Below, piece by piece: positions 34,020 through 39,997 of a stretch of DNA of 46,996 nt; the first letter of the stretch is position 1; each line of letters begins with the position of its first letter. Under the pieces are notes generated by a model that was not told the DNA's origin, ran no database searches, and was given only the letters and a program-made list of their open reading frames with translations. The position numbers and the translations under genes are program-made. Source of the DNA: an uncultured Schlesneria sp. Lineage in GTDB: Bacteria > Planctomycetota > Planctomycetia > Planctomycetales > Planctomycetaceae. The stretch covers positions 1 to 46,996 of the forward strand of contig CAIULL010000253.1 in NCBI GenBank assembly GCA_903899985.1, read 5' to 3'.

Positions 34020-34955
34020 ATGTCGTTGTTCAAAGACAATTCCGAATCGATTGGGCACACGCCTTTGATTCAAATCAACCGGCTTGCGAGCGGGCTTGGT
34101 GCACGAATTCTCGCGAAAATCGAAGGTCGCAATCCCGCATACAGTGTCAAGTGCCGGATCGGGGCCGCCATGATCTGGGATGCAGAAACTCGTGGCCTGC
34201 TTAAGCCCGGGGTTCATGTCGTTGAGCCAACGAGTGGAAATACCGGGATTGCATTAGCCTTCGTTTGTGCAGCTCGTGGTTATCAACTCACGCTGACAAT
34301 GCCTGAAACGATGTCCGTCGAACGGCGTGCGATGTTGAGGTCATTCGGTGCCGAGCTTGTGTTGACGCCTGGTTCAGAGGGCATGAAAGGTGCGATCGCA
34401 AAGGCGGAAGAACTCTCGAAGCAAAATGGCTGGTTCATGCCACAACAATTCAAAAATCCGGCCAATCCTGGAATTCACTTCAAGACCACCGGTCCCGAAA
34501 TATTTGACGATACAAACGGAAAGATTGATTACTTCATTGCCGGTGTCGGTACTGGTGGAACAATCACGGGCGTATCGAGGTATCTCAAACACCAAAAGAA
34601 ACTTCCGATCAAGTCAATTGCGGTTGAGCCACAGTCAAGTCCCGTACTTTCCGGTGGTCCATCGGGACGTCATAAAATTCAGGGGATCGGTGCTGGCTTT
34701 GTTCCGGAAATCCTTGAAACCAATCTGCTCGATGAAGTGATTCAGGTTACCGATGATGAAGCGTTTGAAACCGCCAGGCTACTGATGAAGCTTGAAGGAA
34801 TTTCGTGCGGGATCAGTTGTGGTGCTGCCATGGCGGCATGTTTAAAAGTCGCAGCCAGGCCAGAAGCGGCTGGGAAGACCATTGTGACTGTTTTGCCAGA
34901 CAGCGGAGAACGATATCTTTCGACTGCACTGTTCGACAAAGAGGTGACCGGCTAA
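34020..34955 (+). CDS. cysK: Cysteine synthase A (O-acetylserine sulfhydrylase)
   Basis: 311 residues. PLP enzyme that makes cysteine from O-acetylserine and sulfide. Signatures: IGHTPLIQINRL, the PLP Lys in RNPAYSVKCRIG, PTSGNTGIALAF, the phosphate-binding GTGGTITGVSRYL, and KIQGIGAGFVPE. The ATG at 34020 has GGGGG about 9 bases upstream; a GTG five codons earlier is less likely. It is the first gene of the plus-strand block leading into the two shell genes and supplies the cysteine used by the desulfurase further on. Confidence 0.96.
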   Translation: MSLFKDNSESIGHTPLIQINRLASGLGARILAKIEGRNPAYSVKCRIGAAMIWDAETRGLLKPGVHVVEPTSGNTGIALAFVCAARGYQLTLTMPETMSVERRAMLRSFGAELVLTPGSEGMKGAIAKAEELSKQNGWFMPQQFKNPANPGIHFKTTGPEIFDDTNGKIDYFIAGVGTGGTITGVSRYLKHQKKLPIKSIAVEPQSSPVLSGGPSGRHKIQGIGAGFVPEILETNLLDEVIQVTDDEAFETARLLMKLEGISCGISCGAAMAACLKVAARPEAAGKTIVTVLPDSGERYLSTALFDKEVTG

Positions 34956-35109
34956 CTGCAACTCGTCTCTTGCGACTGCTTCGAATCATCCGAGTCCCTT
35001 GACTTTCGGTCTTGAACGAATTATCGACCGTCTATAGGACGTTGTCGAAATCGGAATGGGAATTCGTTTCCATTCGCTTTGAAACATCACATTTTTGGGA
35101 AGGATCTCG

Positions 35110-38077: not shown

Positions 38078-38251
38078 TCTTGTGGAAATCGGACAATCGT
38101 CTGCGTTGTGCGTCGCGTGAAGTGCTTTTTCGTATCTTTTGCAGGCTCGCATCGTGATGACAACGCGGTACTCGATCGTTGTTTCCGTTTTCATTAATCC
38201 GAATGACGTCTCCACAGGCTTTGGCTTTGCGAGTTTTTTAAAGGCGGACTC

Positions 38252-39997
38252 ATGACTGAAGTCACTCCCGATTTGATCGCAGAAATCGCTACCCGTTTGC
38301 TGAATGACGTTCCGCAAAGCTCGACAGATGGGATTCCAGCATCCCCTGTGGTGACTGCCGTTCCTCAACAGCCCTTCTATCCGGCGAATTCGTACGTTCC
38401 TTCGGCATATCGAACCTCGTCTTCAGATTCGTCTCCGCAGGGTCGAGTCTCACCCATTGCTGTTGAACGCTATGCACCTGCGATTTTGCCTGCCCCTGTG
38501 AATCTAGGCTTCACGCCTGACACTCCCGTCGGGGCACCACATCATGTGGCGGATGTTTCTCCTGATGGGCTACGCAATTTTGTCGAGCAAATCAGAAATC
38601 CCGCTCCGCAACCTGACTGTGGGTTCGGATTTGGTGCATCTGGGGTCGCGTTTCTTAAGCAGATCCTGGCTCCGAATCAAATCCCCAATCCCGTCTTATC
38701 TGGTGGCTCCCGGCCGTTCGACGTTCCTTCAATTCGTCGTGATTTTCCGGCACTGAACCAGAGGGTTCACGGCAAGCCATTAATCTGGTTCGATAATGCC
38801 GCGACAACTCAAAAGCCACAATCGGTCATCGACTCGATCTCTTATTACTACGCCCATGATAATTCGAACATTCATCGTGCTGCTCATACGCTTGCTGCTC
38901 GTTCGACGGATGCGTTCGAGGCGGTTCGAGAAAAGGTTCAGCGATTCCTCGGGGCGGGCTCGTCGAAAGAGATTATTTTCGTGCGAGGGACGACCGAAGG
39001 AGTCAATCTGATTGCAAAGACCTACGGTCAAAAGTTCTTGCAGCCTGGCGATGAAATCCTGTTGTCGACTCTGGAACATCACGCGAACATCGTCCCGTGG
39101 CAAATGGTCGCGAAGGAAAAGGGTGCGATAATTCGCGTCATTCCCGTGAATGATCGCGGCGAAGTGATGCTTGAGGAATATCAGACACTTCTTGGACCAA
39201 GGACCAAAATCGTGGCGTTGACTCAGGCTTCCAACAGCCTTGGCACCATTTTGCCAGTCACCGAAATGACTCATCTGGCGAAACGCTATGGGGCACGGGT
39301 TCTGATCGACGGGGCGCAATCCGTTTCCCACATTCCTGTCAACGTTCAGGAAATTGGCTGCGATTTCTTCGTGTTTTCCGGGCACAAGATCTTTGGTCCG
39401 ACGGGCATCGGCGTTGTTTATGCCCGTGAAGAATTGCAGGAAATCATGCCCCCCTGGCAGGGTGGTGGGAACATGATCAAGAACGTCACGTTCGAAGAAA
39501 CAACCTATTCTGATCCTCCTAATAAGTTTGAAGCGGGGACACCCAACATTGCCGACACGGTGGGGCTTGGTGCCGCTTTGGATTATGTCCAAAGTCTTGG
39601 ACTTACCAATATTGGTAACTACGAACATCACTTGTTGGAATATGCAACCGAGCGATTGCTGCCGATTGATGGGTTGCGTCTGATCGGGCGAGCACGGGAA
39701 AAAGTCAGCGTGATTTCCTTCGTCTTGAAGGATCGCCGCACGGAAGAGGTCGGAAAGTTGCTCGACCTTGAAGGGATCGCTGTACGCGCAGGTCACCATT
39801 GCTCGCAGCCCTCCTTACGTCGTTATGGCGTTGATGCTACCGTTCGTCCATCCTTCGCGTTCTACAATACGACGGATGAAATCGACCACCTCGTGGCGTC
39901 CGTCAAACGGATCAGTGTCGGGACAGTTAATGTTTCGACAACATCTGGCTCGGCAACCCAAAACCGTTTCCCTTTCGGCTCGGCAGTGTTCCGTTAG
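38252..39997 (+). CDS. sufS: SufS-type cysteine desulfurase with cargo-loading N-terminal extension
   Basis: 581 residues; ordinary SufS has about 405. Residues 1-155 are an added region of Pro/Ser/Ala-rich linker with three short helical patches (4-19 TPDLIAEIATRLLNDV, 101-115 DVSPDGLRNFVEQIR, 128-140 GASGVAFLKQILA). Then comes the PLP enzyme (from PFDVPSIRRDFPALN), with K379 in FSGHKIFGPTG as the PLP lysine and C517 in RAGHHCSQP as the persulfide cysteine. A Ser/Thr tail (about 560-581) extends the C terminus. It releases sulfur from cysteine as alanine plus persulfide. The extension matches the unstructured N-terminal domain that targets desulfurase cargo into family 2 encapsulins. ATG with AAAGGCGG about 6 bases upstream. 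Last gene of the block. Confidence 0.94.
   Translation: MTEVTPDLIAEIATRLLNDVPQSSTDGIPASPVVTAVPQQPFYPANSYVPSAYRTSSSDSSPQGRVSPIAVERYAPAILPAPVNLGFTPDTPVGAPHHVADVSPDGLRNFVEQIRNPAPQPDCGFGFGASGVAFLKQILAPNQIPNPVLSGGSRPFDVPSIRRDFPALNQRVHGKPLIWFDNAATTQKPQSVIDSISYYYAHDNSNIHRAAHTLAARSTDAFEAVREKVQRFLGAGSSKEIIFVRGTTEGVNLIAKTYGQKFLQPGDEILLSTLEHHANIVPWQMVAKEKGAIIRVIPVNDRGEVMLEEYQTLLGPRTKIVALTQASNSLGTILPVTEMTHLAKRYGARVLIDGAQSVSHIPVNVQEIGCDFFVFSGHKIFGPTGIGVVYAREELQEIMPPWQGGGNMIKNVTFEETTYSDPPNKFEAGTPNIADTVGLGAALDYVQSLGLTNIGNYEHHLLEYATERLLPIDGLRLIGRAREKVSVISFVLKDRRTEEVGKLLDLEGIAVRAGHHCSQPSLRRYGVDATVRPSFAFYNTTDEIDHLVASVKRISVGTVNVSTTSGSATQNRFPFGSAVFR

Follow-up and report, generated by a model that had tools for sequence, protein, structure and literature searches.

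A CysE-like C-terminal tail on one of two shell proteins as a predicted docking site for cysteine synthase in a planctomycete desulfurase encapsulin

Why should an operon keep two nearly identical encapsulin shell genes? The question is left open in the accessible text of the paper describing two-component encapsulins (PMC12407261), and it is raised again by a 46,996-nucleotide stretch of DNA (contig CAIULL010000253.1, hereafter the window, to which coordinates refer unless a locus is given) from an uncultured Schlesneria sp. whose genome is 99.97% complete in 296 contigs. Here, a cysteine synthase A gene (cysK, 34020-34955) is followed on the + strand by genes for two Family 2B shell proteins, shell 1 (Enc1, 35110-36573) and shell 2 (Enc2, 36638-38077), and for a SufS-type cysteine desulfurase (38252-39997). 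The two shells are 80% identical. We propose that they form an encapsulin with the desulfurase as predicted cargo, and that a C-terminal tail on shell 1, resembling that of serine O-acetyltransferase (CysE), likely docks CysK on the outside of the shell. From the sequence comparisons below we put the probability of this reading at about two in three.

The shell 1 tail and the CysE peptide

Shell 1 ends in ...HRNPSGFEDGLGI, that is GFEDGLGI-COOH, the last seven residues of which (FEDGLGI, 36550-36570, + strand) form the predicted docking peptide. Shell 2 ends in ...YYHDYENRKPKVK; its C-terminus is basic (ENRKPKVK, 38051-38074, + strand) and lacks the docking tail. The CysE encoded in the same locus ends in ...QFPHHFEDGSGI (HFEDGSGI), a near-match to the shell 1 GFEDGLGI, and the solved CysE chains 7e3y and 6jvu, both ending in HTFEYGDGI, fall into the same register in the alignment. 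Shell 1 carries a free C-terminal isoleucine in the F-x-x-G-x-G-I context of a CysE-type peptide.

The behaviour of such peptides is described in the portions of PMC5562914 and PMC12895370 available to us. The CysE tail enters the CysK active site, where its terminal isoleucine plays a critical part, with ~80% of the binding energy ascribed to it. In the cysteine synthase complex only one site per CysK dimer is believed to be occupied, and CysE-type peptides are competitive CysK inhibitors that are displaced by O-acetylserine. The C-termini of other proteins, namely CdiA-CT, EGL-9 and CymR, also engage CysK homologues. The window resembles the CysE:CysK complex in the type of peptide and in the partner with its TSGNTG and QQF segments, but differs in that an encapsulin shell bears the peptide in place of an acetyltransferase. 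It likewise resembles CymR:CysK, CdiA-CT:CysK and EGL-9:CYSL-1, in which non-CysE proteins are reported to use a C-terminus to engage CysK or its homologue CYSL-1; however, none of CymR, CdiA-CT or EGL-9 is a compartment shell, and the window tail would be present in many copies per particle.

The CysK of the operon (TIGR01139, 454.7 bits against a cut-off of 350.95) has an intact pocket for such a peptide. Aligned to the CysK structures 5j43 and 5xa2, it keeps the TSGNTG and PQQF segments of the peptide pocket, which are those holding the listed contact residues. TSGNTG was present in 53 of 55 cysK matches and the stricter pattern Q.F..NPAN in 39 of the 55. The protein has 311 residues, with the family match spanning residues 8-305, and bears no long loading extension. 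CysK scored over the cut-off in all ten genomes checked, and the genome of the window has a second cysK, on contig C283.

Linkage between cysK and the tail was assessed in those tailed two-shell loci whose upstream sequence reached 3 kb or more, 21 in all. A same-strand cysK lay within 3 kb upstream in 12 and somewhere in the locus in 14, so a strict association was rejected as a rule. No cysK match was found in the nine untailed actinobacterial two-shell loci fetched. In six loci (L037, L042, L052, L067, L070 and L073) the operon CysK is extended at its C-terminus by a stretch rich in proline and acidic at the end (such as PDPYHYDLGDE or LPPFDVGDE); this extension could contact the basic C-terminus of shell 2.

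In the published encapsulin literature searched, which held few subscription papers and preprints, a difference in tail between two shells was not found. A search pairing 'encapsulin' with 'cysteine synthase', with the same coverage, returned no description of a shell tail, and the terms C-terminal, C-terminus and CysK gave zero matches in the searchable text of PMC12407261.

Distribution of the tail among shells, CysE and regulators

Among the best 120 of 8000 scored shell 1 homologues, 94 have a GxGI terminus and F or Y at position -7; the other 26 end in lysine. The specificity of the motif was gauged in a census of 982 distinct open reading frames (ORFs) of at least 150 residues from the window and 118 further loci. 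Ends of the form [FY]xxGxGI were carried by 28 of 97 shells and 22 of 29 CysE, by none of 79 desulfurases or 45 CysK, and by 2 of 729 other ORFs, a class into which shell ORFs shorter than 330 residues also fell. Loci L037-L073 and L080-L159 share contigs; the census, codon and two-shell counts are of distinct sequences.

Of 97 loci, distinct in the final 40 residues of their first shell, 32 have two shells, and the tail sits on the first shell in 22 of the 32. Nineteen of the second shells in these 22 loci have a natural end, and all 19 end in lysine; of the remaining three, two are cut by a contig end and one (L059) reads out of frame. The ten two-shell loci without a first-shell tail comprise nine actinobacterial loci and L039. 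The first shell of L039 (8897-10357, genome G142) is interrupted by an in-frame stop after ~222 codons, which could be genuine or could stem from faulty sequencing, the genome being a draft.

Codon use in the tail was compared across 35 distinct tailed genes. Gly-2 and Gly-4 are each encoded by four different codons and the terminal Ile by three, with no change of amino acid, and F or Y occupies position -7 in 34 of the 35. Synonymous turnover around invariant Gly, Gly and Ile residues suggests selection on the tail.

The paired shell genes of some loci are nearly alike. Those of L042 show 100% DNA identity in eight 40-codon windows in a row, and those of L073 show 95-100% identity over eleven such windows, with 4% synonymous differences. 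In both loci the identity stops at YHDY, just 5′ of the tails. The HK97 part is 81-100% identical in 18 of 18 genome pairs and the tail region only 38-62%. A tree of shell bodies built by a quick method from 47 rows, with the tails left out, requires 12 changes of tail state, and the shell bodies of one genome often pair together. Gene conversion thus appears, from these alignments, to have homogenised the shell bodies in some genomes and to have halted at the tail. It is not universal, because within the window's subgroup of the genus each shell has a clade of its own (7 rows for shell 1, 8 for shell 2); the shell genes of the window, L038 and L068 are far more diverged, with 53-55% of same-residue codons differing. 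An ancient split of Enc1 and Enc2 with separate histories, published for other phyla, was considered and does not hold generally here, given how often bodies pair by genome.

The Family 2B cut-off was passed in 31 of 170 genomes of the window's family and in 11 of 392 drawn from the phylum; for several of these 11 the match is a Family 2A shell that reaches the cut-off only when its in-frame neighbours are included. Tailed shells occur in two of the 11 genomes, both members of other families in the class: G514 (...GFQDGLGI), beside an untailed neighbour, and G429 (...SFEMGSGI). Tailed shells were also found among proteins labelled Schlesneria paludicola and Fimbriiglobus ruber. A GxGI tail was absent from all 15 2A-like shells, without the inserted domain, met in Planctomycetota.

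To place the tail across phyla, we used the best 80 of 591 stretches, many of them from metagenome-assembled genomes, with phyla taken from record titles; here, and in the comparison of gene order among relatives, loci on shared contigs are included, and shells on cut contigs were taken as found. Tailed shells occurred in 15 of 26 Planctomycetes and 3 of 4 loci with Desulfuromonadia-type titles, and in none of the Chlorobi (0/14), Bacteroidota (0/12), Cyanobacteria (0/4), Actinobacteria (0/13) or others (0/7). In Chlorobi the tail was instead present on 11 of 11 CysE detected (typically FTDGLGI), beside a single untailed shell, and CysE was also tailed in 4 of 4 Cyanobacteria and 3 of 4 Bacteroidota. 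The tail is thus carried by the shell in one group and by the neighbouring CysE in others. Mutual exclusion of the two is a trend only, which tracks phylum; the window itself holds both. In the 59 desulfurase loci with a complete shell, 14 had only a tailed shell, 17 only a tailed CysE, one had both and 27 had neither.

An independent pointer to CysK comes from one of the two 'other' ORFs of the census: it encodes a regulator of the Rrf2 family and, in L065, is divergent from cysK. Relatives of this regulator were met in four further loci. In L040 the gene is again divergent from cysK, in L044 and L047 it follows the desulfurase at ~30 bp and ~1.2 kb, respectively, and in L050 it precedes a shell by 0.8 kb. 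The window's own genome encodes one on contig C180 (L218:1507-1983), ending FIGGDGI. Of eight distinct copies with at least 50% identity, seven end in G[DE]GI, the exception being that of L073; L063 is also among the loci with a CymR-like Rrf2 regulator ending in this way. CymR2-CysK2 is reported to form in Bacillus subtilis, with the CymR C-terminus modelled as the CysK anchor, and CymR is listed as an Rrf2 repressor in the reference list of the same paper (PMC11487621, consulted in part). By their ends and neighbourhoods, these CymR-like proteins are possibly a third docking partner of CysK as well as regulators of the operon. The second 'other' ORF, from Chlorobi, encodes an HPr-domain protein and lies upstream of cysK. 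All five loci in which it was matched (L100, L102, L105, L108 and L111) have it with the tail, as VFENGAGI or VFEYGAGI, and it is an unexpected additional candidate partner of CysK.

Shell family, cargo and layout of the locus

Both shells exceed the cut-off of 400 for the NCBIfam model encap_f2b (NF041163), with 578.6 bits for shell 1 and 595.1 for shell 2, and both match the SrpI-like HK97 fold (PF19307; 375.5 and 381.2 bits). In shell 1, PF19307 covers residues 211-468 and PF00027 residues 110-190, so that a cyclic-nucleotide-fold domain is inserted between an N-terminal part and the remainder of the HK97 domain, as in Family 2B; shell 2 also contains an inserted PF00027. The preliminary description of this DNA had recognised this 2B architecture with a Crp-like insertion, and had set a search with 2A and 2B models as its test. 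Both shells in fact match both models, passing the 2A model NF041162 (427.6 and 430.2 against 380) because the HK97 part is common to the two families. They align over most of their length to the solved Family 2B-like chains 9bje and 9bhu and to 9bix. The start of shell 1 is more likely the GTG at 35110, giving MSDNLLQRSVTT... in parallel to shell 2, than the TTG at 35095. A gap of 64 bp separates the two genes, inside the 10 kb allowed for two-shell loci.

The inserted domains were compared with the consensus of the phosphate-binding cassette. Shell 2 reads KPSDVT and shell 1 HRSNVT, with an arginine one place early; the canonical cassette arginine is lacking in both. Control of the window shells by cyclic nucleotides looks unlikely and was set aside. 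The same genome encodes a second Family 2B desulfurase operon (C44; L006:8925-12151), with near relatives in L054 and L055, whose single shell is 55% identical and has an intact cassette, FGEIALIEEKPRTATVRA (KPRTATV), of the kind lost in the window shells.

The view of the preliminary description that the pairing of 2B shells with a desulfurase is unusual is not supported. In the parts of the literature available to us, 199 Family 2B operons with desulfurases are reported from nine phyla, 2B operons often having two shells (PMC8346489), and 503 two-shell operons fall into five operon types including one with desulfurase (PMC12407261). In Streptomyces lydicus, described in the latter, two adjacent 2B shell genes with inserted cyclic-nucleotide-binding domains resemble those of the window, and the shells co-assemble. 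The published split of Enc1 and Enc2 by motif 1 (TVWK in Sl-Enc1, RRRK in Sl-Enc2) differs from the window, where the shells carry QVWK and LVWK, both of the VWK form.

SrpI, the Family 2A encapsulin of Synechococcus elongatus, offers a second comparison (PMC8049743, in the text available). Like the system predicted for the window it has a desulfurase cargo with an N-terminal extension. The extended C-terminus of SrpI is close to the A-domain and builds a spike that rises at the five-fold axis, where the pore is proposed to admit cysteine, and cargo density was seen inside the shell at the three-fold axis. The HK97 part of SrpI aligns throughout with the window shells; unlike them, SrpI is a single shell without an inserted domain, and its last eight residues lie beyond the alignment.

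The desulfurase matches TIGR01979 with 554.5 bits (cut-off 475.1) from residue 160 on, which gives an N-terminal extension of ~155 residues, and PF00266 over residues 178-547. It contains the motifs RAGHHC and SGHK. With a SufS-type domain and a long extension beside a shell gene, it has the features expected of an encapsulated desulfurase. The cut-off of 800 for the family 2A cargo desulfurase (NF041166) was not reached (784.1, residues 148-554 aligning to profile positions 217-623). Near the start of the extension lies a helix-like motif, TPDLIAEIATRLLNDVP (38264-38314, + strand). A pattern composed after the sequences were seen (TPDLIAxIATRL.N and variants) occurs in 50 of 76 desulfurases and in at most 1 of 76 in 200 shuffles. 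The motif recurs in several phyla and is a candidate cargo-loading peptide; in the accessible text of PMC8346489 no specific targeting peptide had been identified for desulfurase systems.

Profile searches recovered cysK, both shells and the desulfurase with its extension where the preliminary description had placed them. Its expectation that desulfurase and shells co-occur in relatives was also borne out, and two-shell desulfurase operons with cysK recur. The gene order is kept in relatives; therefore, the arrangement is not by chance. The flanking signals fared less well. A sigma-70-like promoter (TTGACA-17-TAATAT, 33914-33942, + strand, 10/12 consensus matches) does exist 5′ of cysK, but it is weak evidence because the window holds 9 such sites against a mean of 5.7 in shuffles. 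For the terminator proposed at ~40035, a 9-bp hairpin is visible by eye at 40037-40061 (+ strand), followed by TTTCTCGTT instead of a clean T run and absent from the list of the consensus terminator scan; it is a possible terminator. The cysE gene (32063-32998, - strand; PF06426 and PF00132; TIGR01172, 226.5 bits against 210.65) is divergent from the operon across the intergenic region from cysK, and its tail (FEDGSGI, 32066-32086, - strand) is of the CysK-binding type. This gene, which the preliminary description leaves unmentioned, lies ~2 kb upstream of shell 1. Rfam models gave zero matches in the window at gathering scores.

A docking model and its alternatives

In the model that we favour, shells 1 and 2 would co-assemble, as the preliminary description had considered possible and as the shells of S. 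lydicus do, and the desulfurase would be loaded through its N-terminal extension as for SrpI, probably by way of the conserved start motif. The shell C-terminus would stand at an outer five-fold spike near the pore; we place the shell 1 tail there by analogy with the extended C-terminus of SrpI. The terminal isoleucine of shell 1 would enter one active site of a CysK dimer and anchor the enzyme, leaving the second site free; CysE and O-acetylserine would compete with it for the occupied site. The cysteine that tethered CysK produces would pass the pore and be desulfurated inside, so that sulfide and O-acetylserine would in net terms yield alanine and stored or carried sulfane sulfur. An Acinetobacter encapsulin reportedly stores elemental sulfur. 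The tail could double as a switch, because the docked site would be blocked and O-acetylserine would release CysK. Feeding of the compartment by the adjacent cysK had earlier been proposed from gene order, and the CysE-like tail, unnoticed in that proposal, possibly gives it a physical basis.

Several observations weigh against docking as we propose it. The outside position of the tail rests on SrpI, a Family 2A protein. An active site of CysK is inhibited by the peptide bound in it, so the purpose of docking could be to store or inhibit the enzyme and not to feed the compartment. No intact same-strand cysK was present in the fetched stretch for 7 of the 21 tailed two-shell loci, and in G126 (L057) and G133 (L056) only a cysK remnant with in-frame stops stands beside the tailed shell. 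The tail of L098 lacks the aromatic residue at -7. In at least five loci among the best 80 a tailed shell has no second shell; some of these are near contig ends, but the tailed single shell of L090 is well inside its contig, and the tail needs no partner shell there. The shell of the C44 operon is untailed and has no cysK within the 19.5 kb examined, so docking is not needed in every such system. Lastly, the motif [FY]xxGxGI was defined after the tails had been seen.

The alternatives overlap in part, and their odds are not a partition. The tail might be a regulatory decoy that binds CysK chiefly so as to block it or to draw it away from CysE and the CymR-like regulator, with no channelling of cysteine to the pore. 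The competitive inhibition by CysE-type peptides and their displacement by O-acetylserine (PMC12895370, PMC5562914, as far as available) would suit such a role, as would the three competing tails in the genome, on shell 1, CysE and the Rrf2 regulator of C180. We nevertheless think it unlikely, since the cysK of its own that the operon has in 12 of 21 relatives fits a stoichiometric partner better than the titration of the C283 copy. It is less probable again that this is simply the published type of two-shell 2B desulfurase encapsulin with cysK as a co-regulated neighbour. The 199 desulfurase operons and the two-shell cases already on record (PMC8346489, PMC12407261) favour that view, and serine acetyltransferase is described, in the sources available, as an enriched neighbour of desulfurase encapsulins; it leaves unexplained, however, the fixation of the tail on the first shell alone and its survival in genomes with homogenised bodies.

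The resemblance to CysE could also be coincidence or convergence on GxGI, the tail being an assembly or cargo-loading element unrelated to CysK. Short motifs can recur, and other encapsulin cargos have glycine-rich GLG motifs, such as GPTGLGT in terpene cyclases (PMC8346489, accessible text). Set against this are the census, in which the motif marks 28 of 97 shells and 22 of 29 CysE but 2 of 729 other ORFs, one of them an Rrf2 regulator; the invariant free C-terminal isoleucine despite synonymous turnover; the linkage to cysK; and the tailed CysE of the Chlorobi and cyanobacterial loci where the shell is untailed. We consider a chance likeness improbable. Most doubtful of all is a tail facing the lumen with CysK as a second cargo. 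Loading of multiple cargos has been suggested for two-component shells (PMC12407261, in part), and one tail per shell 1 subunit would be like a loading site, but in SrpI the extended C-terminus belongs to the spike on the outer surface, next to the five-fold axis (PMC8049743, in part), and the 311-residue CysK has no long loading extension, although some relatives have short C-terminal ones.

A bolder form of the docking model has one shell subunit adopting the docking tail of CysE and CysK dimers pinned round the vertices of a shell filled with desulfurase, making cysteine from sulfide at the pore, with CysE, the CymR-like Rrf2 repressor and the shell competing for CysK so that its occupancy acts as a cell-wide sulfur sensor. 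We regard the chances of this form as evenly balanced. If it is true, CysK occupancy would couple cysteine synthesis, gene control and sulfur storage. Docking of CysK on shell 1 would link the cysteine synthase complex to sulfur-handling compartments, and the encapsulin would be, to our knowledge, the first whose own shell sequence provides a port for a named metabolic enzyme. Such docking would also offer a reason for two nearly identical shell genes, their stable difference being the predicted docking peptide.

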